DNA of 64,000 nucleotides from Tessaracoccus flavus. GTDB lineage: Bacteria > Actinomycetota > Actinomycetes > Propionibacteriales > Propionibacteriaceae. Below are positions 20,064 through 33,303 of the stretch, in pieces. The stretch's first letter is position 1. Each line of letters opens with the position of its first letter. The position numbers and the translations under genes are program-made. The notes below the pieces were generated by a model. It worked only from the letters and a program-made list of their open reading frames with translations. It was not told where the DNA came from and searched no databases. The stretch spans positions 1,550,001 to 1,614,000 of the forward strand of contig NZ_CP019605.1 in the NCBI RefSeq assembly GCF_001997295.1, read 5' to 3'.

Positions 20064-20684
20064 TCACCGCAGTCGCGTAGTGACTTCGTCGAGGAGTTCC
20101 TGGGGGTCGAGCCACATGGAGGGGTAGTTGCCGTACCAGCGCTGGACGCCCTCGCCGTCGATGAGGACGAAGCCGTGTCCGGGCATCCCGGGGTGCATGC
20201 CCTTGTCGAGGACGTCGTAGGCCTTGGACACGGTGCCGTCGTCGAGGAGGTAGGGGGTGGTGACGCCGAACTGCTGCATGTCGGGCAGGATCTGCTCGGC
20301 GCTGTTCATGACGATTGGCAAAACCTGGATGCCGGCCTCGGCGAAGCCGGGGTTCTTCTCGATCTCGGCCATCTGCATGGTGCAGGAGGCGCAGCCGGCG
20401 CCTTCGTTGAAGTAGATGAGCACCGGGCTGGGTCGTAGGTCGCTGAGGGTGACCGTGGCGCCGGCTGTGGTGGTGAGGGTGAAGTCGGGGGCGACGCGCT
20501 GGGTGTCGCCTTGTTCTGGGATGGCGGTCCACAGCCCGTAGCCGACGACGACGACGACGATCAGGGTCACTACTCCGCCGATGATCCGGCTCCAGGTGCG
20601 GCGCTTCGTGTCGCGGCGCGTCTCGGCCTCCTGGCGGGCTTTGAGTTGCTCGCGCCGTGAGGGTGCGGGGTTCGTGGTGGTCAT
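20064..20684 (-). CDS. Thioredoxin-fold (AhpC/TSA, TlpA-like) membrane-anchored protein
   Basis: A 206-residue protein with a cytoplasmic basic N-terminus, a single helix (residues of about 32-54) and an extracytoplasmic thioredoxin-fold domain: APDFTLTTTAGATVTLSDL, then the redox site GCASC and GFVLIDGEGVQRWYG near the C-terminus. It probably receives electrons through the CcdA-like protein encoded just upstream, whose stop overlaps its ATG by 4 bp. The role is likely reducing or shuffling thiols for metallated exported proteins. Confidence 0.85.
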   Translation of the reverse strand: MTTTNPAPSRREQLKARQEAETRRDTKRRTWSRIIGGVVTLIVVVVVGYGLWTAIPEQGDTQRVAPDFTLTTTAGATVTLSDLRPSPVLIYFNEGAGCASCTMQMAEIEKNPGFAEAGIQVLPIVMNSAEQILPDMQQFGVTTPYLLDDGTVSKAYDVLDKGMHPGMPGHGFVLIDGEGVQRWYGNYPSMWLDPQELLDEVTTRLR

Positions 20685-21646
20685 CGTGGCTCCTGGGAGA
20701 GTGTCGTCGGAGCGCTGGCTCCTTCGGGCGCGGGGGTCGGTGTTGGTTGGGTGTCGCAGCAGTCATGGACGGCGGCGGTGGGCTTGGCGTGTCGGCGGTC
20801 GCGAAGGGTGGCGATGACGAACACGGCCACCAGTGCGAGCAGTGCCAGTCCGAGGACGGCCTCGGGGATAGGGGCGGTGATCGCGAGCAGCCAGGCGAAG
20901 ACCTCGGAGAGCCAGGCGCCCATGCCGACCAGCGGGGCGTCGGCGCCGGTCATCTCGGTGGCGCCGGCTTGGCCGATCACGAGGATGCCCATGATCACGA
21001 ACCCGACGGCGACCAGCAGGTTGACGGTGTTGGTGGCTAGCGTGAAGCGGCCCAGGTTGATCCGGATGGGCTTGGCGCGGAGGCTGCGCATCCGCTCGGG
21101 TCGCTTGTCCCACAGCAGTGCCATCACGAACAGCGGGATCACCATCCCGAACACGTAGGCCAGACCGAGCACCAGCCCACCGACGGGCGAGCCGGACAGC
21201 GCCGACAGGGTCATCACGCCCGCCAGGACCGGCGCGCAGCAACTGGAGGCGATGCCGGAAAACACGCCGAGGCTGAAGAAGGTGGCAGTGTCCCCGCGTG
21301 CGGTGTCAGGCGCCCGGAGGAACGACGGCATCGACCACATCGCCCCCGACAACGCCAACAGGCCGAGTCCGATCATCAACAGGCCGCCGGCCCAGTAGAG
21401 AACCACGTGGTACTTGGCAATGGCGCCGGCGATCAGGCTGACCCCCATGGTGATCGGGACCAGGACCGCTGCCAGGCCGGCGGCGAACACGAAGGTCAGC
21501 GGGATCAGGCGCCAACGGCGGTTCTTCGCCGCCGCGGCCAGATAGCTGGGGGCGAGGAAGACGATGCAGCACGGGGCGAACAGCGCGACGCCGCCGGCGA
21601 GGAACGCCGCCAGGATCCCTCCCGCGCTGAGCAAGTCGGCACCCAT
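20681..21646 (-). CDS. CcdA/DsbD-type cytochrome c biogenesis transmembrane protein
   Basis: A 321-residue membrane protein with about eight helices. The paired cysteine motifs of thiol-transporting CcdA proteins are visible: APCCIVFLAPSYL in the first helix and GIASSCCAPVLAG in the fourth. The C-terminus is a His/Cys-containing tail (VHDCCDTQ). It carries reducing equivalents from cytoplasmic thioredoxin to extracytoplasmic partners, here presumably the product of 20064-20684. It overlaps both neighbouring genes by 1-4 bp, so the three form one operon. Confidence 0.85.
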   Translation of the reverse strand: MGADLLSAGGILAAFLAGGVALFAPCCIVFLAPSYLAAAAKNRRWRLIPLTFVFAAGLAAVLVPITMGVSLIAGAIAKYHVVLYWAGGLLMIGLGLLALSGAMWSMPSFLRAPDTARGDTATFFSLGVFSGIASSCCAPVLAGVMTLSALSGSPVGGLVLGLAYVFGMVIPLFVMALLWDKRPERMRSLRAKPIRINLGRFTLATNTVNLLVAVGFVIMGILVIGQAGATEMTGADAPLVGMGAWLSEVFAWLLAITAPIPEAVLGLALLALVAVFVIATLRDRRHAKPTAAVHDCCDTQPTPTPAPEGASAPTTLSQEPR

Positions 21647-21948
21647 CAGCGGGCACCGAGGCGGTCGACGAGCCGCGCCAGCTTGCCTCGCGGAATGCGG
21701 CCGGCGTGGAAGTACCTGCCCGCCACCAGGGTCAGCGGGAAACTCCCAGGGCGGTGCTCGGCGATCAGCGCCTCACCTTGCGGTGACTCCGCCGGCACTG
21801 CCGTCAGCCGCAACAATCCTGCACGTTCCAGATCGTGGAGGCGTTGATGGGCGTCGTCGCAGAAGTGACAGGCGGGGGTGGTCACCAAGGTGACGTTGAC
21901 CACCTCGGTCGGGGCGGTCGGCGGTGCTGATGCCGGAATCTCGTTCAC
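21646..21948 (-). CDS. Glutaredoxin-like thioredoxin-fold protein
   Basis: Up to 100 residues. VTLVTTPACHFCDDAHQRL carries the CHFC redox site, and FPLTLVAGRYFHAGRI includes the cis-Pro. It is the first gene of the thiol-redox operon and probably feeds the CcdA-like carrier. ATG 21948 gives a 15-residue Pro/Ala-rich extension. GTG 21903 or 21900 would start directly at the first strand, and the upstream regulatory box geometry favours such a shorter form. No strong ribosome-binding site settles the choice. Confidence 0.8.
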   Translation of the reverse strand: MNEIPASAPPTAPTEVVNVTLVTTPACHFCDDAHQRLHDLERAGLLRLTAVPAESPQGEALIAEHRPGSFPLTLVAGRYFHAGRIPRGKLARLVDRLGAR

Positions 21949-21991
21949 GATCCCAGCCTCAACCCTCCAGATCAGGGAACGGTTCAGCCCG

Positions 21992-22009
21992 GGTCAAGAT
22001 TCGGCCAAG
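21992..22009 (-). promoter_or_regulatory. Direct-repeat regulator box 1 (between redox operon and two-component genes)
   Basis: On the minus strand it reads CTTGGCCGAATCTTGACC: two TTGnC half-sites 11 bp apart. A weaker third half-site continues to 21981. It lies between the divergent starts at 21948 and 22071. Confidence 0.65.
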
Positions 22010-22070
22010 AACACTCCCCCAGCACCGTGAGGGGGTGGGGTGGCGGGCGGGGAGTGTCAATAATGGCTGT

Positions 22071-22778
22071 ATGGCTGAGCCCCGCAGGTCGAGTGTGTTG
22101 GTGATCGACGACGAGCGCCCGCTGGCAGGGATCGTCGCCTCCTACCTCAACAAGGCAGGCTTCGACACCGCCCTGGCCTACACCGGCCCGGACGGCGTCT
22201 CCTCGGCGCAAGACCTGGACCCCGACGTCATCATCCTTGACCTGGGCCTACCCGGCATCGACGGCATCGAGGTGTGCCGCCAGATCCGGCTGTTCTCCGA
22301 CTGCTACATCCTGATGCTGACCGCCCGCGCCGACGAGGTCGACAAACTGATCGGCTTGTCGGTGGGCGCCGACGACTACCTGACCAAGCCGTTCAGCCCC
22401 CGCGAGCTCGTCGCCCGCGTCAACACCGTGCTGAGACGCCCGCGCCGCCAGACCCACGGCACACAGCCGGCCCCGCCTCGCGAGTTCGGGCGGCTGCGGG
22501 TGGACGCGGAGGGCCGCGACGTGTGGGTCGACGACCAGCAGGTGGGGCTCACCCGCACCGAGTTCGACATCCTCGACGCACTGTCCGGCCGGCCCAACGT
22601 GGCGCTGAGCAGGCGGCAGATTATCGACTCGGTGTGGGGCCCGGGCTGGGTCGGCGACGATCACGTCGTCGACGTGCATGTGGCAAATCTCCGCAAGAAG
22701 CTCGACGACCCGCCCGCGGAACCTCGCTACATCCTCACCGTCCGCGGAGTCGGCTACCGGATGGGACCAGGAGCATGA
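22071..22778 (+). CDS. OmpR/PhoB-family response regulator (putative copper/redox island regulator)
   Basis: A 235-residue two-component response regulator. The receiver domain has acidic pair DD13-14, phospho-acceptor D57 (VIILDLGLPG), T/S in MLTAR and K107 in LTKPFSP. The C-terminal winged helix has FDILDALSGRPNVALSRRQII and HVVDVHVANLRKKL. ATG 22071 is used since the longer ORF starts inside the redox operon promoter. Its stop overlaps the kinase start as ATGA. It is the best candidate for binding the direct-repeat boxes found throughout the island. Confidence 0.9.
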   Translation: MAEPRRSSVLVIDDERPLAGIVASYLNKAGFDTALAYTGPDGVSSAQDLDPDVIILDLGLPGIDGIEVCRQIRLFSDCYILMLTARADEVDKLIGLSVGADDYLTKPFSPRELVARVNTVLRRPRRQTHGTQPAPPREFGRLRVDAEGRDVWVDDQQVGLTRTEFDILDALSGRPNVALSRRQIIDSVWGPGWVGDDHVVDVHVANLRKKLDDPPAEPRYILTVRGVGYRMGPGA

Positions 22779-23920
22779 CCAGGCTGCGCGGTCTCGTGGG
22801 CCGGATGCGGTGGGGAACCCGCACCTTCCTCACCCAGGCCCTGGTGGTGGCGGTCGGCGTGATCACCGCCGCCCTGATCGCTGTGGTGGTCGGGCCCCCA
22901 CTGTTCCACGAACACCTGCAACAACTAGGTCACGCGGACGGAACTGCCGAGATGGGGCATGTGGAGCAGGCGTTCCTCGACGCTGGCGTCAGATCGTTGG
23001 GCATCGGGCTGGTGGTGGCGCTCACGCTGGCTATCGGCCTGGCCTGGATCGAGACCAGGCGGCTGCGCCGCCCACTGGAACAACTGACCGCAGCCGCCGC
23101 CCAGCTCGAGGCAGGCGACTACACCGCCCGCGTCCCCCAGAGTGGAACAAGTCCCGAGTTCACGGCCGTCGCCGACGCGTTCAACGACATGGCCAGCCGC
23201 CTGGATTCCACCGAGACCAGCCGACGGCGGCTGCTCTCGGACGTGGCGCACGAGCTTCGCACCCCCCTGGCCACGCTGACCGCTGAGCTGGAGGCCGTCA
23301 TCGACGACGTGGTCCCCTGGGACCACGACAGCCAGCAGCTGCTCACCCTCCAGGCCGCCCGGCTCAAGAAGATCGCCGCCGACCTCGACGACGTATCCCG
23401 CGCCGAGGAAGGTCGATTCACTTTGGATACCCAGACCCAGGCGGTGTGGGACCTCATAGAGCCCGCCGTCGCCACCGTCGCCACCCGATACCAGGCCAAG
23501 GGAGTCGTCTTGTCCGCGGACTCGGACCCGGGCTTCGTCGCAGCGGATCCGCAGCGGGTGGGACAGATCCTGGGCAACCTCCTCGACAACGCGCTGCGGC
23601 ACACCCCCATCGGGGGGATCGTGCACATCAGCGCACGCGAGTCCCGGGACGAGGTGGTGTTCATGGTCACCGACACCGGCGACGGCCTCACCCCGGAGCA
23701 GCTCTCGAAGGTGTTCGACCGGTTCTACCGCGCCGACACCGCCCGGGCCCGCGATGCGGGCGGCTCCGGGATCGGGCTGACCATCGCCCGCAGCCTCGCC
23801 CTAGCCCACGGCGGCTCATTGACCGCAACCAGCCCCGGCCCCGGACACGGCTCGACATTCACCCTCACCCTTCCCCTCGCCACCGCGCCAGAACCGGAGC
23901 GTGTCTTGATCGATTCTTGA
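22775..23920 (+). CDS. Sensor histidine kinase
   Basis: A 381-residue HK. Helices at about 20-42 and 74-93 flank a very short outer loop (residues 43-73) rich in His and Met (FHEHLQQLGH, AEMGHVE), a plausible metal-sensing site. A HAMP domain follows (residues 94-145). The dimerisation domain has H159 in SDVAHELRTPLA, and the catalytic domain has NLLDNALRHT (N box), DTGDGL (G1) and GGSGIGLTIA (G2). It forms an overlapping pair with the response regulator. Signal identity (copper, silver or thiol stress) is inferred only from the island content. Confidence 0.88.
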   Translation: MTRLRGLVGRMRWGTRTFLTQALVVAVGVITAALIAVVVGPPLFHEHLQQLGHADGTAEMGHVEQAFLDAGVRSLGIGLVVALTLAIGLAWIETRRLRRPLEQLTAAAAQLEAGDYTARVPQSGTSPEFTAVADAFNDMASRLDSTETSRRRLLSDVAHELRTPLATLTAELEAVIDDVVPWDHDSQQLLTLQAARLKKIAADLDDVSRAEEGRFTLDTQTQAVWDLIEPAVATVATRYQAKGVVLSADSDPGFVAADPQRVGQILGNLLDNALRHTPIGGIVHISARESRDEVVFMVTDTGDGLTPEQLSKVFDRFYRADTARARDAGGSGIGLTIARSLALAHGGSLTATSPGPGHGSTFTLTLPLATAPEPERVLIDS

Positions 23921-23922
23921 CC
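23905..23922 (+). promoter_or_regulatory. Direct-repeat regulator box 2 (upstream of DUF305 lipoprotein)
   Basis: CTTGATCGATTCTTGACC, with half-sites 11 bp apart. It overlaps the kinase stop codon. A TAGCCT hexamer starts exactly 50 bp after the box start (23955) and the lipoprotein ATG is 87 bp after the box. Confidence 0.7.
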
Positions 23923-24008
23923 TTCCACGGGTTGGATCGAGAGCTGAGGGTCCATAGCCTCGAGATCAAGGACCGGCGAGCCCCGTCGGCCAGGAACGGA
24001 GCACGAAT

Positions 24009-24662
24009 ATGTCACGCACGAAGCAGATCACCGCCACGTTGGCGGGGCTGGTCCTCACGGCCACCCTGGCAGCCTGCGCAGACCAGAGCACCACTCCCCC
24101 AGCCGCGACCACCACTCCGACCAGCAGCACCTCCGCCACGGCCACCGAGTCAGCGTCGGCGTCGGCGAGTGCCTCGACGGACGTCGCCGCCGATCACAGC
24201 GACCAGGACACCACCTTCGCGCAGATGATGATCATCCACCACGAGGGCGCCATCGAAATGTCTGAGCTGGCCATTGAGCGAGCCGAAAGCCCCGAGGTCG
24301 TCGCGCTCGCCGAGCGGATCTCTGCAGCCCAAGGCCCGGAGATCGACGAAATGACCGCCTGGCTGAGCGCCTGGGGCGAAGACGTCTCCCCCGACGACCA
24401 CGGCGGTATGGACATGGGCGGGATGGACATGAACGGCATGAGCCAGGAAGAGATGATGACCCAACTCGACGGCCTCACGGGCGCCGAGTTCGATCAGGCG
24501 TTCCTCGAGGCCATGATCGCCCACCACGAGGGCGCGATCGGGATGTCCGAGCAGCAGTTGGCCGAGGGCCAGAACCCCGACGCGGTGGCGCTGGCGGAGA
24601 AGATCATCGCCGACCAGCAGGCCGAAATCACCGAGATGCAGGAGATACTCACCGGCCTCTGA
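24009..24662 (+). CDS. DUF305 lipoprotein
   Basis: A 217-residue exported lipoprotein. The signal peptide ends in lipobox LAAC (C22), and a Thr/Ala/Ser-rich linker follows to about residue 60. Two DUF305 half-repeats are seen, each with a His-rich metal-like motif: MMIIHHEGAIEMSELAI and AMIAHHEGAIGMSEQQL. Between them is a Met-rich stretch (GGMDMGGMDMNGM) typical of copper-binding proteins. It is the last gene behind the two-component pair but has its own regulator box. Probably a periplasm-side copper sequestration protein. Confidence 0.87.
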   Translation: MSRTKQITATLAGLVLTATLAACADQSTTPPAATTTPTSSTSATATESASASASASTDVAADHSDQDTTFAQMMIIHHEGAIEMSELAIERAESPEVVALAERISAAQGPEIDEMTAWLSAWGEDVSPDDHGGMDMGGMDMNGMSQEEMMTQLDGLTGAEFDQAFLEAMIAHHEGAIGMSEQQLAEGQNPDAVALAEKIIADQQAEITEMQEILTGL

Positions 24663-24682
24663 CCCCAGGCGCACAAACGATG

Positions 24683-24719
24683 AGGCGCCCGTCCAGCCGG
24701 CGTGGCTGGATGGGCGCCT
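24683..24719. terminator. Bidirectional intrinsic terminator
   Basis: AGGCGCCCGTCCAGCC (24683-24698) pairs with GGCTGGATGGGCGCCT (24704-24719) with one mismatch and a 5-nt loop. A T-containing tail follows. It lies between the convergent lipoprotein (stop 24662) and YHS gene (stop 24760). Confidence 0.8.
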
Positions 24720-24759
24720 TGTCGTTGCCCTCGGGTCGGTGCGAATGCAGACCTGGGGG

Positions 24760-25050
24760 TTAGGCGGCTGGACTTGAGGCGAGGCGCTCGGCGTCGAAGA
24801 GGTCTTGGCAGCGTCGGCAGCAGAAATAGTACCGCTCGCCTTCAACGTCGCGGAACAAGCCGGCCGTCTCCGCGGTGGACTTCAGCGTGCTGGTCCCGCG
24901 CACCACGCAGGCGACCAGTTCGTCGCCGGGGCCGGCCACTACATCGTGCTGACAGTGATGACCGCCACCCTGGCCGTGGGCGGTGTGGCCGCCGCAGCAG
25001 CCTCCCTCCTGCTGGTTCCCGTGCTGGTGTCCGTGTTCGTGATTGCACAT
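24760..25050 (-). CDS. YHS-domain-like metal-binding protein
   Basis: A 96-residue soluble protein. The N-terminus is exceptionally rich in His, Cys and Gly (MCNHEHGHQHGNQQ, GGCCGGHTAHGQGGGHHCQH). The C-terminal part RYYFCCRRCQDLFDAERL matches the CxxC of YHS/TRASH metal-binding domains. It probably buffers copper or a similar soft metal in the cytoplasm. ATG 25050 follows a purine-rich GAAAGG...AAAGGG site, which rules out the longer ORF. Last gene of the minus-strand lgt operon. Confidence 0.75.
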   Translation of the reverse strand: MCNHEHGHQHGNQQEGGCCGGHTAHGQGGGHHCQHDVVAGPGDELVACVVRGTSTLKSTAETAGLFRDVEGERYYFCCRRCQDLFDAERLASSPAA

Positions 25051-25085
25051 GTGCCCTTTTTCCTTTCGTTTTCTTGTGGTGTTGA

Positions 25086-25520
25086 TCATCGGGTGGGTGA
25101 GGGGCTGTGGTGCCCCTCGTGGTCTTCGGTGCCGGTCGTGCTGGCGGAAGCGGCCGGTGTGGGGGTGTCTTGGTCGCTGGAGGTGGCGGGGTTGAACAGT
25201 GGCCCGATCACGAATGCCGACAGGGCGAACAGGCCGGTGAACACCGCTATCCCAATTGCGGGGGCCTTCCAGGTGCCGAACCTGCGATGCAGCCGTCGCA
25301 GCAGGGGGATGCTCAACGCCAACCCGACCACGTAGAGCAGCGTGTTGCCGAGGAATCCCGTCAGAAGCGCAGCCCCGGCCAGGAACCCGATGTGGTGCAT
25401 CACGTGCGGCGCCAGGCCCATCAACGCACCGAGGGTGGCCCGTGTGCCGGCCCAGAGCGCACCCCAGAAGCCGCGACGCCCCCCTGTCACGCCTGGGGTG
25501 GTATCGGTGATCGTGTCCAT
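25086..25520 (-). CDS. Small integral membrane protein
   Basis: A 144-residue protein with about three hydrophobic segments: GALMGLAPHVMHHIGFLAGA, LLTGFLGNTLLYVVGLALS and IGIAVFTGLFALSAFVIGPL. The extracytoplasmic tail is Thr/Ser/Pro-rich and ends in a His-containing EDHEGHHSPSP. The HVMHH motif inside the membrane is suggestive of metal handling. It sits between lgt and the YHS gene on the minus strand. I do not recognise the family beyond this. Confidence 0.7.
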   Translation of the reverse strand: MDTITDTTPGVTGGRRGFWGALWAGTRATLGALMGLAPHVMHHIGFLAGAALLTGFLGNTLLYVVGLALSIPLLRRLHRRFGTWKAPAIGIAVFTGLFALSAFVIGPLFNPATSSDQDTPTPAASASTTGTEDHEGHHSPSPTR

Positions 25521-25528
25521 CGCGCCGC

Positions 25529-26329
25529 TCACCGTCCGACCGGATGGGGGCTGGGGGCAGCCGACGAGGGGTCGGCGGCGGAGACGTTTGAGACTGGAGC
25601 AGCAGGATGGAACGTGTCTCGGAGGATCAGGGCGGCGCCGAGGATGATGCTGGCGATGCCGATCAGCTGCGCCTCTGTGAGATCGAGCACGACGTGCGGG
25701 TTGATGCGGACCATCTCGGCGAGGAGGCGGGCCGCTCCGCTGAGCATCAGATAGGACCCGAACACGGCCACCGGCCGCAGTCTGCGGCCCAGCACCCACA
25801 AGATGCCGGCGATCAGGAACGCACCGGCCGCTTCATATAGCTGGACCGGGTGCACCGGAACGTCGACCGGCACCACTCCGTTGGGGAACGCCATCCCCCA
25901 GGGCAGATCGGTGGGCGTGCCGTAGGTGCCGTCACCGGCCAGGAAGCAGCCGATCCGGCCGATGCCGTAGGCCACCGACAGCGGCGCCGCCATCGCGCCC
26001 GCCACCCGCCCAAGGGGCAGATCGTGGCGTCGAGTCATCACGATCACCGCGATCGACCCGGCGATCAATCCCCCGTACCAGACGAACCCGGACCCGCCGA
26101 ACAGGTGCCAACTGAAGTTGTCCCAGTTCGCGATCAGGTAGTACACCTTCGCGCCGACGAACCCCCACACCGTCGCCCACAACGCGATCGAGTGCGCCAG
26201 TTCCTTGTCGTAACCGATCCGCGTGAACGCGCGACCCAACAGGAACGCGCCGACCAGCAGCGCCAGCGCCTTACTCAGCCCATAGCTCTGGATCCCCACA
26301 CCAAAAATCGAGAACACCTCAGGCCACAC
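25529..26329 (-). CDS. lgt: Prolipoprotein diacylglyceryl transferase (island copy)
   Basis: A 266-residue membrane enzyme that adds diacylglycerol to the lipobox cysteine of prolipoproteins. The Lgt signature is present as GIGRIGCFLAGDGTYG. FVWYGGLIAG is the conserved helix before it, with further helices N- and C-terminal. GTG 26329 has a GGGAG 7 bp upstream and fits the regulator box and -10 positions better than the in-frame start at 26386. A genome normally has one lgt elsewhere. This extra copy beside a metal-induced lipoprotein suggests dedicated capacity for the island. Confidence 0.85.
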   Translation of the reverse strand: MWPEVFSIFGVGIQSYGLSKALALLVGAFLLGRAFTRIGYDKELAHSIALWATVWGFVGAKVYYLIANWDNFSWHLFGGSGFVWYGGLIAGSIAVIVMTRRHDLPLGRVAGAMAAPLSVAYGIGRIGCFLAGDGTYGTPTDLPWGMAFPNGVVPVDVPVHPVQLYEAAGAFLIAGILWVLGRRLRPVAVFGSYLMLSGAARLLAEMVRINPHVVLDLTEAQLIGIASIILGAALILRDTFHPAAPVSNVSAADPSSAAPSPHPVGR

Positions 26330-26428
26330 AGCCCACTCCCATCGTCGAAACTGTTCCAGGCGCGCGACGTGACCGCGGGGCCTCACTGCCCAGTCTCAAC
26401 CGGTCATCTCAAGCAACGAGCAGGACCC

Positions 26429-26446
26429 GGACAAGGTTTGGTCAAG
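26429..26446 (-). promoter_or_regulatory. Direct-repeat regulator box 3 (upstream of lgt operon)
   Basis: Minus-strand reading CTTGACCAAACCTTGTCC, two half-sites 11 bp apart, 100 bp before the chosen lgt start. A GAGACT hexamer lies about 49 bp downstream of the box start. Confidence 0.65.
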
Positions 26447-26495
26447 ATCCCCGTCCACGTGCCTGGACGAGGTAACGCCACACAGTAAGGCGGAT

Positions 26496-26513
26496 CTTGA
26501 GCGAAGCCTGACC
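26496..26513 (+). promoter_or_regulatory. Direct-repeat regulator box 4 (in front of relic cassette)
   Basis: CTTGAGCGAAGCCTGACC, nearly identical to box 7 upstream of copA. A TACCCT hexamer starts 51 bp after the box start (26547), and a CsoR-like palindrome follows at 26560. Confidence 0.6.
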
Positions 26514-26559
26514 ACCTGACCGTGACTTTTTGGATTGCACCCTGCCTACCCTGATGACA

Positions 26560-26574
26560 TACCCCTTTGGGGTG
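26560..26574. promoter_or_regulatory. CsoR-type operator (relic promoter)
   Basis: TACCCCTTTGGGGTG has the TACCC-N-GGGTA shape of CsoR operators and lies just after a TACCCT -10-like hexamer. The alignment with the copA promoter at 28098-28125 is clear. No intact gene follows. Confidence 0.6.
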
Positions 26575-26749
26575 TGGTGGCGGCGTCGATACCACGGGTC
26601 CCCCGTGTCGGCTCGGAAGTTGAGGAAAGGGCGCTTCGGCGTAGGTCGAAGCTCCGTGGCGGGTGCGTGCCAAACTCGAGATTCAATGGCTGGTGGTCGA
26701 GATGGGTTCAAGCGGCAGCTCTTCAGATGGCGTCCGAGCGGATGTGGTG

Positions 26750-26892
26750 CTCGCGGGGCACCGCGATCTCCAGAATCTGGCGTCCACTGCGTCGACCTGG
26801 ATCTGGAGCCGCCGGTGGAGTCGCTGTTGCCCCCGGCCGGGGCCGTGACCAGCGAGTTCCTTCCCGCCCCGGTCAGGGCCACGACGGCCTGA
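26750..26892 (+). pseudogene. Decayed HMA copper-binding protein gene
   Basis: One frame reads GVHCVDLDLEPPVESLL then AGAVTSEFLPAPVRATTA, which parallels the intact protein at 27752-28063 ([32 protein letters not shown]). The N-terminal CxxC part is lost and the gene ends early. With the upstream relic promoter it represents an older copy of the same cassette. Confidence 0.65.
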
Positions 26893-27039
26893 GACCGGAC
26901 GGACGGGCAGGCATCCGCCGAGCCCGTCGGCGCACGACCTGTCGGCCAAGCGGTCGGAGAGGAAGACCCGATCATGAAGAGCAAACCACGGTCCTGGAGG
27001 CCGGTGGCCTGCACTGGGCCACCTCGGAATCAGTGATCG

Positions 27040-27180
27040 AGAGAACGCTACTTGGGGTTACCCGGCGTGCTGGCCGTCGAGGCCAGCGCCGTCTCCCAGA
27101 CCGCGACGGTCACATATGACCCGAACCAGACGTCGGTCGCCCAACTGGTCGGCTGGGTCAATGACTGCGGCTACCACTGC
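27040..27180 (+). pseudogene. Fragment of a second HMA domain (copper ATPase N-terminus type)
   Basis: GLPGVLAVEASAVSQTATV, then YDPNQTSVAQLVGWVNDCGY, is a typical C-terminal two-thirds of a heavy-metal-associated domain. The metal-binding CxxC part upstream is out of frame behind a stop. It directly abuts the transporter remnant, so this is a junction of fragments. Confidence 0.65.
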
Positions 27181-27189
27181 ACCGGGCTG

Positions 27190-27545
27190 GATCTGGTCAC
27201 GGCCGCGGCGTGGCACCTGCTGATGGGCGCGGCTGGACTGATGGTGTTCGCCGCGGCCGTGGAGGGCTTGCCGGTGATCGCGTGGACTCCCCGTTTCGTC
27301 CTCTCGCTGGCGTTTCTGGCCCTCGTTGGTACCGCAGCGACGACCGTGGCGTGGTTCGCCGAGGCGCGCCGCAGCCAGGCTCGACACGTTGACGGCGTGG
27401 ACGTACCTGACTCCGGTCCTTGGTATCGGGTTGGCCTCCGTCGCATTGGGCGAGTGGCCGGGCGGATGGACCGCCGTCGGGCTCCTCGGCGTGTTGGCGG
27501 CCATGTGGATCACCCTTCGACCACCGCGCCGGGCCCTCATACACC
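27190..27545 (+). pseudogene. DMT/EamA-type transporter remnant with frameshift
   Basis: HLLMGAAGLMVFAAAVEGLP and FLALVGTAATTVAWFAEARR in one frame continue in another as LDTLTAWTYLTPVLGIGLAS and LGEWPGGWTAVGLLGVLAAM. Together these are the C-terminal EamA repeat of a drug/metabolite transporter (the W...E..R, L.P.....GE pattern). The N-terminal half is absent and a frameshift lies near 27385. Not functional. Confidence 0.7.
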
Positions 27546-27611
27546 CGACGGCTGTCGGCCCCGCCGGCTGGTGAGCCACACCGCCGGTCACATGAACAAC
27601 GAGTAGGACCC

Positions 27612-27629
27612 GGACAGGGTGCGGTGAAG
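27612..27629 (-). promoter_or_regulatory. Direct-repeat regulator box 5 (degenerate)
   Basis: Minus-strand reading CTTCACCGCACCCTGTCC, the counterpart of box 3 in the duplicated segment. It is weaker and now has no minus-strand gene in front of it. Confidence 0.4.
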
Positions 27630-27649
27630 ATCCGTCCACGTGGCCGGGT

Positions 27650-27667
27650 CTTGTCGGGATCTTGACC
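27650..27667 (+). promoter_or_regulatory. Direct-repeat regulator box 6 (upstream of HMA gene)
   Basis: CTTGTCGGGATCTTGACC, half-sites 11 bp apart, 85 bp before the GTG start at 27752. CACCAT lies 50 bp after the box start, where other boxes have their -10-like hexamer. Confidence 0.65.
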
Positions 27668-27751
27668 CCACCCAGACCGGTTCCCGACACCGCGGGGGGC
27701 ACCATCGAACATGAACACGCGAAACCGACCAGGAAGAGAGGGTGATTCGAC

Positions 27752-28063
27752 GTGACGACGATGACACAGGCCACCTACGGGGTGCGCGGGCTCAGCTGTT
27801 GGCGCTGCATGATCAGCGCTGTGGAGGCGGTCCGGGCCTTGCCCGGGGTGCATACCGTCGGGATGGATTTGGAGCCGCACGGGGAGTCGCTGTTGACGCT
27901 GGCACCGGCCGGCGCCGTGACCAGCGCCCAGGTCCGGGCCACCCTCGACCGCTCCGGGTTCGAACTGACCCGACGCCGGCGCCGGCCCCGACCCAGCCGG
28001 CTCCGACATGCCCTCACCACAGCCCCTGTGGACGACGGTCGGGAAATCTTGACCGAAGCCTGA
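27752..28063 (+). CDS. HMA-like copper-binding protein
   Basis: A 103-residue protein with a heavy-metal-associated fold. [19 protein letters not shown] carries the CxxC metal site, followed by [13 protein letters not shown] and a second beta-alpha-beta half ([17 protein letters not shown]). The C-terminal 25 residues are Arg-rich. It probably delivers Cu(I) to the ATPase encoded next. GTG 27752 (or ATG 27761) follows AGGAAGAGAGGG. It is separated from copA by 95 bp that contain box 7 and the CsoR operator, so the two are separately controlled. Confidence 0.82.
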
Positions 28064-28065
28064 CC
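28048..28065 (+). promoter_or_regulatory. Direct-repeat regulator box 7 (copA promoter)
   Basis: CTTGACCGAAGCCTGACC, 94 bp before the copA start. TACCCT starts exactly 50 bp after the box start (28098-28103) and is followed by the CsoR operator. Confidence 0.75.
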
Positions 28066-28110
28066 CCATCGGGGTCGTTTCCGGACCTGCGCGGGCCTAC
28101 CCTGGATACA

Positions 28111-28125
28111 TACCCCCCCAGGGTA
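28111..28125. promoter_or_regulatory. CsoR operator at copA
   Basis: TACCCCCCCAGGGTA matches the TACCC/GGGTA arms of CsoR sites. It sits at the expected transcription start, 8 bp after the TACCCT hexamer, so bound CsoR would block initiation. The csoR gene lies directly downstream of copA. Confidence 0.75.
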
Positions 28126-28158
28126 CTGGGTGGGAGTCGAGTGGAAGTGGAGATTGTG

Positions 28159-30951
28159 ATGCTCTGGCTGGTCATAGGTGGGGCGGTGGTCCTGACCGGG
28201 TTGCTGCTGTGGTTCTTCTTCGGCCCGAAACGGGCAGGGAAGGTCCGCATCGAAGATGGTGTTCAGGTGGTGGAGGTGACTGTCGACGGCGGCTACAACC
28301 CGGGGGTGATCGACGGGGTGCGTCCGGGGATGCCGGTGCGGATCATGTTCGACCGCCGAGAGGGTGGCGAGTGCACCTCGCGGGTGGTGGTGCCGGACTT
28401 CAAGGTCAACGCGAGCCTTCCCGCGTACCGGACCACGGCCGTCGAGTTCACCCCGACTGAGGCCGGCGAGTTCCGCTTCGCATGCGGCATGAACATGGTC
28501 TCCGGTCTGATCCGCGTCACCGGCGACCCCCACACCGCACCCACCCCCACCACAGCATCGGGTCATCACCACGCGCAGGTGGCCGCCTCCCCGGCAGTGG
28601 CCGGTCTTGCGACCGACGGTGCCGATGATGAGGCAGAGCGGGCTGTGGAGATCCGGGACCTGACCCGGCGGGTGATCATCGGCGCTATCCTCACCGCCCC
28701 GGTGCTGATCGCGGTGATGGCCGTCGAGCTGTTCGGCGCCACCTGGGTGCCTGAGATCTTGATGAGTCCCTGGTTGCAGCTGGCGCTGATTGCGCCGGTG
28801 ATGCTGTGGTCGGGCTGGCCGATCCACCGCGTGGGATGGCGTGCCCTGTCGCACCGCACCGCAGACATGAACTCGCTGATCACGCTCGGCACCGTCGCGG
28901 CGTTCGGTTACAGCCTGGTGGTGACCTTCGCCCCCGGACTACTGCCTGAGGAGCTGCGGCAGGTGTACTTCGAAGCCGTCGGGGTGATCATCACGTTGAT
29001 CCTGCTCGGCCGGCTCCTGGAAACCAAAGCCAAGGCCGGCACCGGTGAGGCGATCCGCAAACTGATCGGCCTGCAGCCCCGCACCGCCCGCGTCCTACGC
29101 GAAGATGTGGAGCTGGAGATCCCGGTCGAGGACGTCGTGGTCGGGGATGTGATCGTGATCCGCCCCGGGGAGAAGATGCCCGTTGACGGTGAGGTGATTC
29201 ACGGATCCTCCGCGGTCGACGAGTCGATGGTGACCGGGGAGTCGATCCCTGCGGCCAAGACGGTCGGTGACACCATCATCGGCGCAACCATCAACGCCAC
29301 CGGGGCACTGCGCTATGTCGCCACCAAGGTCGGCTCCGATACCTTGCTCGCCCAGATCATCAAACTGGTCCGTGAGGCCCAGGGCTCGAAGGCCCCCATC
29401 CAACGGCTGGTGGACAAGGTCTCGAGCTACTTCGTCCCGGTCGTGATCATCATCGCGGTGTGGACGCTGGCGATCTGGCTGCTGGTGGGTCCCCCGCCGG
29501 TGTTCGTGTTTGCGCTCGTCGCCGCCGTCTCGGTCCTGATCATCGCCTGCCCCTGCGCCTTGGGGCTCGCGACCCCGATGTCGATCACCGTGGGCACCGG
29601 CAAGGGAGCCGAACACGGCATCCTGATCCGCTCCGCTGAAGCGCTGGAAACCGCGCACAAGCTTGACGCGATCATCCTCGACAAGACCGGCACCATCACC
29701 AAGGGTGTACCGACCCTCACCGACGTCGCCACCGTGGCAGCGTTCGATGAGAACCAGCTCCTCGGCTGGGTCGCCGCTATCGAGAACAGCTCCGAGCACC
29801 CCCTGGCGGCGGCGATCGTGACCGGCGCCACCGACCGCGGTCTCACCCTGGGCGAGGTCACTGACTTCGACTCGGTCACCGGGCAAGGCGTCCGCGGCCA
29901 CGTCGACGGCCACGACGTCCTGGTCGGCAACCGGCGACTTCTCGACGAAAATGGCATCAGTACCGACACGCTGCGGCCGCTGCATGACGCGCTCGCAGCA
30001 GGGGGCAAGACGCCGATGCTGGTGGCCGTCGACGGGCTCCCCGCGGGAATCGTGGCGGTCGCCGACACCATCAAGGACGGCTCCCCGGCCGCGGTCGCGG
30101 CCCTCCAGGCACGCGGCATCGAGGTCATCATGATGACTGGCGACAACCGGGCAACCGCTGCCGCGATCGCCTCCCAGGTCGGGATCCGTCGCGTGGTCGC
30201 CGAAGTGATGCCCGCCCACAAGGCCGCCGAGGTCCGACGCCTCCAGGACGAAGGCAAGATCGTCGGAATGGTCGGCGACGGCATCAACGACGCCCCCGCC
30301 CTCGCGCAGGCAGACGTCGGCTCCGCGATCGGCACCGGCACCGACGTGGCCATCGAATCCTCCGACATCACCCTGATCTCCGGCGCCCTGTCAGGGGTGG
30401 TCACCGCCGTTGACCTGTCGCGGGCCACTATGCGCAACATCAAACAGAACCTGGTGTTCGCGTTCCTGTACAACACCCTCGGCATCCCCATCGCCGCAGG
30501 TTTGCTCTACCCCGTCTTCGGGATCCTGCTCAGCCCCATGGTCGCCGCCGCAGCCATGGCCCTGTCCTCACTGTCGGTGGTCACCAACGCCAACCGGCTC
30601 CGCCGCTGGGCACCACACCCCATCCACGAGTCCCCCACCACCGGCTCCCCCGTCACCCCCGTCGTCGAAATCGGCGGCGAGACCCCCACCACCCAGCACC
30701 ACACCACAGGAAAGGACACCCCCATGTTCGGCAAGAAGACCACCGCCACCACCCACATCGATCCCGTCTGCGGAATGAAGGTCAAGCCCGCCACCGCGGC
30801 CGCCACCCGCACCCGCAGCGAGACCACGATCTACTTCTGCTCCACCCACTGCGCCGAAGCCTTCGACGCGGACCCCGCCCGCTACGGACACCCCCAGATC
30901 GCGGCCGAGCACCAACCCGAGGCTCACACCCCCGCACCGCACCACCACTAG
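28159..30951 (+). CDS. copA: Copper-translocating P1B-type ATPase with cupredoxin and YHS domains
   Basis: A 930-residue Cu(I) exporter. Residues 1-22 are a membrane anchor. Residues of about 35-122 form a cupredoxin domain ([31 protein letters not shown] with Cys/Met copper ligands) in place of an HMA domain. A His-rich linker follows, then the ATPase core: MVTGES actuator loop, CPC copper site (IIACPCALG, about residue 463), DKTGT phosphorylation site (about 507) and [10 protein letters not shown] hinge. The C-terminus adds a YHS domain ([15 protein letters not shown]). ATG 28159 has GGAG 6 bp upstream. The copA symbol is by function. Confidence 0.92.
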
Positions 30952-30979
30952 CCGCCGAACCAGACCAGGTCCAGGACAC

Positions 30980-31261
30980 ATGACCGGCAACCCACAGCGT
31001 CCGGAACTCATCGGCCAACTCGCCGTGATCGAAGGCCATATCCGCGGCATCGCCCGCATGGTCTATCAGGACGCCAACTGCATCGAGATCCTCACGCAGA
31101 CCTCAGCAGTCACCGGCTCGCTGCGCTCAGTCGCCCTGGACCTGGTCGACAACCACCTCCAGCACTGCCTCACCCAGGCCATCCACTCCCCAGACCCCGC
31201 CTACCGCGACGCCAAGGTCGCCGAGGCCTCCACAGCCATCGCCCGCCTCGTCCGCAGCTGA
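30980..31261 (+). CDS. csoR: CsoR-family copper-sensing transcriptional repressor
   Basis: A 93-residue all-alpha DUF156 repressor. The Cu(I) ligands C34 (DANCIEIL), H59 and C63 (DNHLQHCL) are all present. Preceding residues IEGHIRGIARMV match the DNA-binding helix. Copper binding releases it from TACCC-type operators, two of which are seen upstream. It follows copA by 28 bp and is expected to be co-transcribed, giving autoregulation. Confidence 0.93.
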   Translation: MTGNPQRPELIGQLAVIEGHIRGIARMVYQDANCIEILTQTSAVTGSLRSVALDLVDNHLQHCLTQAIHSPDPAYRDAKVAEASTAIARLVRS

Positions 31262-31267
31262 ACCGTT

Positions 31268-31285
31268 CTTGATCAGAGGTTGACC
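31268..31285 (+). promoter_or_regulatory. Direct-repeat regulator box 8 (upstream of small His/Met-rich protein)
   Basis: CTTGATCAGAGGTTGACC, half-sites 11 bp apart, 71 bp before the ATG at 31356. CACAGT lies 49 bp after the box start. Confidence 0.65.
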
Positions 31286-31355
31286 GGCCGCGGATCGGAT
31301 CTGAATCCGGACCCCGCACAGTGGAAGCAGCACCCGAACGAGAGGAACCCGGCTC

Positions 31356-31610
31356 ATGAGCCTCCACAGCCAACACCGCCCCACCGACACCGGCCCCGAC
31401 ACCCCACCCGCGGCCACCGGACCCGCCCAGCAGCACCAGGGCCACGGTGGCCACATGTGGCACATGCTCCTGATGTGCCTACCGTTGATCGGGTTCGGCC
31501 TGTGGTCGCTGTTCAGCGGAGGCGGCGCAGGCGCGCTGATCGGCGGCCTCCTCTGCGCAGGCATGATGCTGCTCATGCACGGCCGCCCCGGCGCCGGGCA
31601 CCGCCACTGA
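31356..31610 (+). CDS. Small His/Met-rich membrane protein
   Basis: An 84-residue protein. The first 45 residues are hydrophilic with many His (HGGHMWHM at the membrane border). Two hydrophobic stretches follow (LLMCLPLIGFGLWSLF and GALIGGLLCAGMMLLMH), and the C-terminus ends GAGHRH. Size and composition resemble DUF2933-type small proteins found in copper islands. It has its own regulator box and is the last island gene. Start ATG 31356 follows GAGAGGAA. Confidence 0.75.
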   Translation: MSLHSQHRPTDTGPDTPPAATGPAQQHQGHGGHMWHMLLMCLPLIGFGLWSLFSGGGAGALIGGLLCAGMMLLMHGRPGAGHRH

Positions 31611-32654: not shown

Positions 32655-32945
32655 ATGTCATCGATACGCAGGAAGTACACCCCGGAGTTCAAGGCTGACG
32701 CGGTCCAGCTCGTGGTGGTCGCGCAGCGGCCGATCGCGCAGGTCGCGCGGGAGTTGGAGATCAATGAGAGCTCGCTGGGCTACTGGGTCAAGATCTACCG
32801 GGAACAGCACCCCGACCCGGTGAAGGCCCCGCCCCCGGTGGAGGCGGCCCGCCTGGCCGCGTTGGAGGCCGAGGTGCGCCGGCTGTCGGAAGAGAACGCG
32901 TTCCTGAAAAAAGCCGCGGCCTTCTTCGCCAGGACGCAACCGTGA
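32655..32945 (+). CDS. IS3-family transposase OrfA
   Basis: A 96-residue OrfA. A helix-turn-helix lies in the first 50 residues (RRKYTPEFKADAVQLV, IAQVARELEINESSLGYWVK), followed by a leucine-zipper coiled coil (ARLAALEAEVRRLSEENAFL). It is complete. OrfB starts at an overlapping GTGA, and production of the OrfAB fusion would need frameshifting in intact elements. Alone it cannot transpose the element. Confidence 0.88.
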   Translation: MSSIRRKYTPEFKADAVQLVVVAQRPIAQVARELEINESSLGYWVKIYREQHPDPVKAPPPVEAARLAALEAEVRRLSEENAFLKKAAAFFARTQP

Positions 32946-33204
32946 CCGACAAGTTCACGCTGATCCACGCGGAGAAGGCCACCCACCCGGTCGGGTTGAT
33001 GACCCGACTGCTGCACGTGTCACGCGCCGGTTACTACTCGTGGGTGAAGCGAGGCGACACCCCGGGCCCGGCGGCGACCCGACGGGCGGAGGTGACCGCC
33101 GCGGTGATCCACAGCCACACCGCCTCCAACGGCGTCAACGGGCACCGCCGGGTGCGCGCCGATCTGAGCGCCGACGGCGTGCCCGCCTCGGAGGGAATGG
33201 TGCG
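32942..33204 (+). pseudogene. IS3-family transposase OrfB, 5' fragment
   Basis: The first 88 codons match OrfB: FTLIHAEKATHPVGLMTRLL, HVSRAGYYSWVKR and NGVNGHRRVRADLSADGV with the HTH_21 region. After VPASEG the sequence no longer resembles a transposase. The DDE catalytic domain is entirely missing, so it is non-functional. Confidence 0.85.
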
Positions 33205-33276
33205 CCCTCGGGCGTCAGCAGTTGGACCATCTGGTCGCTCTGTCCGCGCACGGGCGTCCCCTTCCGGAAATCAACT

Positions 33277-33303
33277 TACGCAACCGTAGCTTACGCAAGC
33301 GTA
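33277..33303. promoter_or_regulatory. Two tandem TACGC-AA-GCGTA operator-like palindromes
   Basis: TACGCAACCGTA (33277-33288) and TACGCAAGCGTA (33292-33303) repeat with a 15-bp period. Arms pair perfectly in the second and with one mismatch in the first. This is the form of a TetR-type operator. No intact gene starts next to it, so it may be an orphan left by the rearrangement. Confidence 0.5.

Follow-up and report, generated by a model that had tools for sequence, protein, structure and literature searches.

A 64,000-nt stretch of Tessaracoccus flavus DNA (contig NZ_CP019605.1, positions 1,550,001 to 1,614,000; hereafter the window) carries a copper-resistance cluster in which a two-component regulator-kinase pair lies among genes for a Cu(I) P-type ATPase (copA), a CsoR/RicR-like repressor, a DUF305 lipoprotein, the prolipoprotein diacylglyceryl transferase Lgt and a thiol-redox operon. 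The subject of the present analysis is a direct-repeat box that recurs before these genes and that, as argued below, very likely serves as the operator of the cluster's own CopRS-type system. The genes and sites of this island are listed in Table 1.

The response regulator scored 95.9 and 91.8 bits against its two Pfam models, both above the cut-offs, which places it in the OmpR/PhoB family. It reached none of the 25 NCBIfam named-regulator cut-offs shown (e.g. MtrA, 212 against 300; cztR_silR_copR, 161 against 279), and the repressor likewise stayed below the NCBIfam RicR cut-off (101.6 of 175 bits). The extracytoplasmic loop of the kinase, judged from the sequence to be about 30 residues long, contains three histidines and a glutamate that are invariant across the 26 closest sequences. 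In a single frame of 930 residues the ATPase combines an N-terminal part resembling cupredoxins with a YHS domain at the C-terminus; the YHS portion is a separate segment in the alignment with L216. Three LGT-family genes are present in the genome (2972092, 1575622 and 2923750), the island copy being extra. On the right side of the island, open reading frames at 32655-33289 resemble an IS3-type transposase, as judged from their translation alone.

Table 1. Genes and putative regulatory sites of the copper island, with the boxes of the paralogous locus L031 (positions in the window unless stated otherwise).
Feature	Position	Strand	Remarks
Thiol-redox operon	20064-21948	minus	GTG start at 21948; divergent from response regulator
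Response regulator, OmpR family, CopR-like	22071-22778	+	Pfam Response_reg and Trans_reg_C
Sensor histidine kinase, CopS-like	22775-23920	+	short extracytoplasmic loop with His51, His53, His68, Glu70
DUF305/CopM-type lipoprotein	24009-24662	+	domain searches (Pfam, NCBIfam)
Lgt	25529-26386	minus	Pfam LGT; head of minus-strand group running leftwards from 26386
HMA/CopZ-like protein	27752-28063	+	weak NCBIfam CopZ matches under cut-off; no Pfam match
Copper ATPase (copA)	28159-30951	+	cupredoxin-like N-terminus, YHS C-terminus
CsoR/RicR-like repressor	30980-31261	+	Pfam Trns_repr_metal, 77.9 bits (cut-off 22.8)
Small His/Met-rich membrane-like protein	31356-31610	+	open reading frame; no match in Pfam and NCBIfam searches
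Box between regulator and thiol-redox operon	21992..22009	minus	1 mismatch; −10 GAGGCT 21955-21960
Weaker half-sites of thiol-redox promoter	21981-21987; 21970-21976		CTGAACC; CCTGATC; same phase as box 21992
−10-like AATAAT of the regulator's own promoter	22059..22064	+	about 50 bp from other edge of box 21992; similar place in most homologues
Box of DUF305 promoter	23905..23922	+	0 mismatches; overlaps kinase stop codon; −10 TAGCCT 23955-23960
Box of lgt	26429..26446	minus	1 mismatch; −10 GAGACT 26392-26397
Box of relic copA-type promoter	26496..26513	+	1 mismatch; −10 TACCCT 26547-26552; CsoR-like palindrome 26560-26574
Degenerate copy of lgt box	27612..27629	minus	3 mismatches; within repeat D2
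Box of HMA gene	27650..27667	+	2 mismatches; overlapping second pair 27661-27678; −10 CACCAT 27700-27705
Box of copA	28048..28065	+	1 mismatch; −10 TACCCT 28098-28103
CsoR-type operator TACCCCCCCAGGGTA	28111..28125	+	begins at predicted copA start; consensus as generally known
Box of small His/Met gene	31268..31285	+	1 mismatch; overlapping pair 31257-31274; −10 CACAGT 31317-31322
Box of L031 regulator	7561-7578 of L031 (genome 1806560)		reverse-oriented before regulator
Box of L031 kinase end	9451-9468 of L031 (genome 1808450)		over kinase stop codon

A preliminary description of this stretch had listed eight such boxes and proposed that the response regulator acts through them. When scored with the pattern CTTGANC-N4-CTTGACC, all eight coordinates indeed hold a CTTGANC-like half-site pair with starts 11 bp apart, and six of them do so with at most one mismatch; the spacer, which had been given as five nucleotides, is four. 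With up to three mismatches the window contained 34 matches, compared with 16.5 ± 4.0 in 100 shuffles. Some boxes are extended by extra in-phase half-sites (at 21981, 27661 and 31257). The distances from the forward boxes to the start codons (87 bp for the DUF305 lipoprotein, 85 bp for the HMA protein, 94 bp for copA and 71 bp for the small His/Met protein) had been reported correctly, as had the four −10 candidates, which start 50 bp (TAGCCT, CACCAT, TACCCT) or 49 bp (CACAGT) from the box start. Minus-strand boxes had been said to precede the lgt and thiol-redox operons; this is the case for those at 26429 and 21992, while the box at 27612 is degenerate and no intact gene was found after it. 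No intact gene was found downstream of box 26496 either. Thus, six of the eight proposed regulon sites stand at intact genes, and the other two fall within a segment (~26414-27640) that appears to have arisen by partial duplication of the promoter region of lgt, HMA and copA and to have decayed since. Besides remnants resembling HMA, the segment contains a relic promoter of the copA type in which box, −10 and CsoR-like palindrome are still present. A further box at 26695, absent from the earlier list, is located in HMA-gene debris and was taken as probably due to chance.

Genomes of the family were searched for the regulator, and 62 of the 147 were found to hold a match at E ≤ 1e-60; 60 stretches around such genes were taken. 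In these loci, together with the window and a paralogous locus of the same genome (L031), 20 exact CTTGANC pairs had a spacing of 11 bp, and no other spacing between 8 and 39 was represented by more than three (range 0-3); the reversed word gave no spacing peak. The expectation that relatives with the same pair would carry the box was borne out as well. Among the 26 regulators that are at least 66% identical (the window included), 25 have by best hit a reverse-oriented box with at most three mismatches 63-98 bp upstream, and the 26th, L070, has a tied hit at that place. As a control we used 77 of 80 regulators from a contig scan (38-47% identical), of which L166 and L194 were dropped for their short upstream regions; none of the 75 usable ones showed a best hit of that quality at the same place and orientation. 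Boxes without mismatches are kept at L086, L117 and L127. Furthermore, the same-strand box over the kinase end occurs in two different registers relative to the stop codon, which rules out coding conservation as its cause. Gordonia amicalis has a CTTGA box with no mismatches, plasmid pCha1 of Corynebacterium halotolerans (regulator 58% identical) has a site resembling that of C. glutamicum, and the plasmid loci of Rhodococcus jostii, Cryobacterium arcticum and Kocuria rosea showed no clear CTTGA box at the regulator position. One recognition-helix residue goes with the type of box (at most two mismatches): 28 Ala and 3 Gly for CTTGA, as opposed to 2 Ala and 10 Gly for CTTCA, in a tally over the regulators of 47 loci that was counted by hand with four mixed rows omitted and is confounded by clade.

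The proposed whole-genome motif search also came out in favour of a dedicated regulon. In the 3.22-Mb genome, the symmetric pattern with at most one mismatch gave 12 boxes compared with 6 for the reversed control, and nine of these 12 lie at the two regulator-kinase copper loci, seven within this 9.3-kb stretch (including 26695) and two at L031. With two mismatches the total was at control level (64 versus 70), so that weak matches carry no meaning alone. A one-mismatch box at 2427699 (L032, 2424000-2431000) lies distant from the copper loci. L031, at 1.807 Mb, contains a second regulator-kinase pair whose regulator shares 73% identity and the recognition-helix core with that of the island and has the same boxes (Table 1); the distance from the regulator start codon to the box edge is 61 bp in the window and 63 bp at L031. 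A CueP/multicopper-oxidase group there points away from the regulator, and a CopB-type ATPase gene lies behind the kinase. Cross-talk between the two pairs is possible.

To see which genes carry a box, 71 sequences (the 60 family loci, L031, six plasmid loci, three named genome loci and the window) were scanned for same-strand boxes with at most two mismatches at gene heads, with query proteins taken from the window, from L031 and from C. halotolerans. A box was found before 16 of 22 Grx, 10 of 16 DUF305, 5 of 7 Lgt, 5 of 5 HMA, 12 of 27 copA (six of the twelve near-identical), 4 of 6 small His/Met and 4 of 7 CueP genes. Operon-internal and other genes had none (CcdA 0/21, Trx 0/22, YHS 0/4, csoR 0/9, membrane DUF305 0/8), and the reversed pattern was absent from every class.

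Exact boxes (CTTGAYC-N4-CTTGAYC) were counted in all 147 genomes, giving 54 compared with 9 for the reversed pattern. The 62 genomes with the regulator contributed 39 (versus 3 reversed) and the 85 without it 15 (versus 6). We called a box copper-near when a query-set gene, regulator and kinase included, with at least 40% identity lay within 5 kb. This held for 36 of the 54 boxes: regulator-bearing genomes account for 33 (of their 39 boxes) and the remaining genomes for 3 (of 15); 24 of the 54 directly precede a query-set gene. A −10-like xAxxxT at offset 48-51 accompanies 33 of the 36 copper-near boxes as compared with 2 of the 18 others, in agreement with the demand that complete sites should be rare elsewhere. 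Two of the 36 are thin cases (G044, with a YHS-like hit only, and G115:C104, with regulator and kinase only), and eight represent one conserved site, CTTGACCCGGCCTTGACC, without which 28 copper-near boxes remain, 25 of them with a −10. This site lies inside the copper clusters of eight genomes (L216, at 7412, L235, L236, L244, L245, L246, L247 and L248), and no nameable gene head was found directly after it.

The architecture of the promoters was examined in an alignment of 65 boxes, one per gene head, reduced to 59 by removal of promoters more than 75% identical. Of the 59, 37 have an xAxxxT element starting at offset 49 and 13 have one starting at offset 50, the counts at all remaining offsets between 18 and 85 being 0-6. 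Two weaker half-sites probably follow the strong pair in phase. In a relaxed test they appeared at offset 22 in 21 and at offset 33 in 18 of the 59 promoters (background mean 1.2; 0 of 1000 shuffles), and in a strict test they gave z values of 4.0 and 5.4. Other offsets rise too, for which reason we grade these half-sites as probable only: the strict z also reached 3.5 at −6, 4.3 at 5 and 4.4 at 53, and the relaxed count was raised at −6, 5, 16 and 27 (15, 30, 8 and 7 rows), since the spacer, which often reads CGAATC, is itself a match to the relaxed pattern. When the −10 is set at −12 to −7, the strong pair occupies −61 to −44 and the weak pair −39 to −22. The thiol-redox promoter shows all four units (CTTGGCC, CTTGACC, CTGAACC and CCTGATC). 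On the regulator side, where distances were counted from the opposite edge of the box in 28 non-redundant homologues, xAxxxT starts at 48 bp in nine of them, at 49 bp in seven and at 50 bp in seven, and at any other distance in 0-3; because of this fixed distance, a single box between the divergent genes may serve both directions. In addition, the start codons of Grx, lgt and copR lie about 6 nt behind the respective −10, so that these messages are probably leaderless.

CsoR proteins bind TACCC-N5-GGGTA-type sequences, and one of these is found at copA. With at most one mismatch, this palindrome is present at 13 of 27 copA heads (six near-identical) and 6 of 11 CopB heads. It was absent from the heads of Grx (0/22), DUF305 (0/16), oxidase (0/34), CcdA (0/21), Trx (0/22) and small His/Met genes (0/6), and occurred at 3 of 9 csoR, 2 of 7 Lgt, 1 of 5 HMA and 1 of 7 CueP heads; the one at the Lgt head of the window belongs to the oppositely facing relic promoter. 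A scrambled palindrome matched one copA and one small His/Met head. Of the 12 copA heads with a CopR box, 11 also carry the palindrome, the exception being L104. At CopB heads the palindrome mostly stands alone, with no box, and the combination is thus not universal for ATPases. From its sequence and place, the element is likely a CsoR-type operator and as such the candidate site of a second copper sensor at the exporter gene.

Together these findings make it very likely that the boxes are operators of the island's CopRS-type system and that copA is additionally under a CsoR-type operator. Several observations weigh against this. Not every copper gene head has a box (9 of 34 for oxidase, 1 of 11 for CopB), and 18 of the 54 exact boxes lack a nearby copper gene, six of them in regulator-bearing genomes. 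Several of the three-mismatch boxes before regulators match individually no better than shuffles (5-25% of shuffles), so that in their case the evidence is one of position only. Regulators of 55-64% identity are mixed, some having a box without mismatches, some a CTTCA-type site and some none, and the named loci L129-L131 (56-63% identical) have no box before the regulator. Finally, in the sections of PMC3140484 drawn on here, CopR of C. glutamicum has the core CTTCA instead of CTTGA and a single genomic site, compared with seven box-bearing gene heads here, that of the regulator included.

TTGAC is the classical −35 core, and the words could conceivably be plain sigma-70 hexamers that have been paired by accident. 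This is very improbable, as half-sites are paired at 11 bp and seldom at any other distance, and the −10 at 49 or 50 bp in 50 of the 59 promoters lies 31-32 bp past the second half-site, about twice the usual distance between −35 and −10; none of the 59 has TTGAC at the −35 place itself. The phasing of the −10 thus rules out an ordinary −35. Nor do we give much credit to the view that the likeness merely reflects the recent duplication or horizontal spread of one functionless stretch. Duplicated segments are indeed present in the window and some loci are near-identical (L073-L078), but the pattern persists in the 59 of 65 promoters left after the similar ones were removed, the two registers of the kinase-end box speak against simple copying, and L117 and L127, whose regulators are 55% and 58% identical, keep boxes without mismatches.

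Less far-fetched, and still unlikely, is that the boxes serve another regulator, either a global OmpR-family member such as MtrA or PhoP or the 1.807-Mb paralogue, with the island pair being incidental. With its recognition-helix core and boxes, the paralogue may bind these sites too, and the 15 exact boxes in genomes scored as regulator-less, three of them near copper genes, would fit such a view. However, the boxes travel with the regulator, as the counts with and without it indicate, and adjoin its own gene at a fixed place; moreover, at one of the three exceptions, G129, the regulator gene is present and cut by the contig end. Comparative evidence and one experimentally studied precedent, CopR of C. 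glutamicum (PMC3140484, in the part consulted), lend strong support to the assignment to the island regulator, the candidate of the preliminary description, and the sequence-level tests named in that description have been passed.

We propose that copper outside the membrane is sensed by the histidine-containing loop of the kinase. The phosphorylated regulator would bind head-to-tail on the two strong half-sites, and binding would then probably extend to the weaker ones, where a −35 would be, so that RNA polymerase is recruited to the −10 starting 49-50 bp from the box start. This would activate the promoters of the thiol-redox operon, the DUF305 lipoprotein, Lgt, the HMA protein, copA and the small His/Met protein and, if C. 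glutamicum is a guide, that of the regulator itself. Given the CsoR-type operator at its start, the copA exporter should be made only when copper outside the membrane has switched CopR on and cytoplasmic Cu(I) has taken CsoR off. The basis at hand comprises the boxes, their spacing and phase to the −10, conservation, target genes and CsoR-type palindromes; that the regulator binds, is phosphorylated, responds to copper and uses the weak half-sites, and that the exporter follows AND logic, is what we infer from it.

A broader picture can be drawn, about which we are somewhat more doubtful than convinced. There may be a widespread actinobacterial copper network with −35-less promoters (two strong and two weak CopR half-sites, −10 at 49-50 bp), in which external copper alone governs envelope protection, including an extra copper-induced Lgt for lipidating the lipoproteins so induced, exporters with a CsoR lock form an AND gate, and an Ala/Gly switch goes with CTTGA/CTTCA. 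Beyond the preliminary description, the present analysis adds the CopR precedent, the paralogous CopRS locus, the CsoR-type operator, the regulator's own promoter, the weaker half-sites and the recognition of two boxes as decayed. The promoter grammar, obtained from sequence alone, is precise enough to pick copper genes in other genomes. It would make lipoprotein maturation, through Lgt, and the thiol-redox carriers part of the response to copper and would add a second lock on ATPase promoters, a two-sensor layout by which it becomes testable how outward- and inward-facing copper sensors combine at one promoter. In the PMC papers cited here, as far as they were consulted, a single site was known for CopR of actinobacteria, and CsoR was dealt with as a separate subject; a search of the open-access literature found no actinobacterial CopR regulon described as spanning several promoters, nor any promoter shared by CopR and CsoR.

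The closest known counterpart is CopRS of C. glutamicum, with an OmpR-family regulator, a short-loop kinase and divergent copper genes; at about 30 residues, the kinase loop agrees with the description of CopS (PMC3353115). According to the parts of PMC3140484 and PMC3353115 consulted, phosphorylated CopR binds TGAAGATTTgaTGAAGATTT, 59-78 bp before copR, three-base-pair mutations abolish binding, and both flanking promoters are activated. Read on the other strand, this site is CTTCA-N6-CTTCA, the same 11-bp direct repeat as CTTGA-N6-CTTGA of the island, so that both share a CTT(G/C)A core and a reverse orientation ~60-80 bp before copR (−79 to −62 here). The site lies 266-285 bp from the divergent start in C. 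glutamicum (PMC3140484) and ~44-61 bp here. There, one site is known; here, box-bearing promoter regions with intact genes number six in the island and at least two at the paralogue. Compared with this precedent, several putative box promoters per island, their fixed grammar, the boxes of lgt and the DUF305 lipoprotein, the paralogous locus with the same box and the predicted CsoR-type palindrome within a box promoter, at the copA start, appear to be new. An lgt gene in a copper cluster has been noted before, as Pseudarthrobacter sp. AG30 carries a multicopper oxidase gene and lgt beside a csoR-copZA operon; no regulatory site is described in the part of PMC6256500 drawn on. As in promoters controlled by CsoR or RicR (M. 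tuberculosis CsoR, PMC3140484, in part), a CsoR-family gene lies beside the copper ATPase with TACCC-N5-GGGTA at the promoter, whereas in the island the palindrome is joined to an activator box 46 bp upstream. Binding by OmpR-type winged-helix dimers to direct repeats in the −35 region is known from E. coli PhoB and the Streptomyces SARP regulators (PMC3348028, PMC10936776, both in part), from which the island differs in signal, in half-site and in having its strong pair one box further upstream. In all, the system is ordinary in kind and unusually legible in its detail, and even the weak pair, which ends 9-10 bp before the −10, has a precedent in the SARP repeats, 11 or 22 bp apart and ending 8 bp before the −10 (PMC10936776, in the part consulted).

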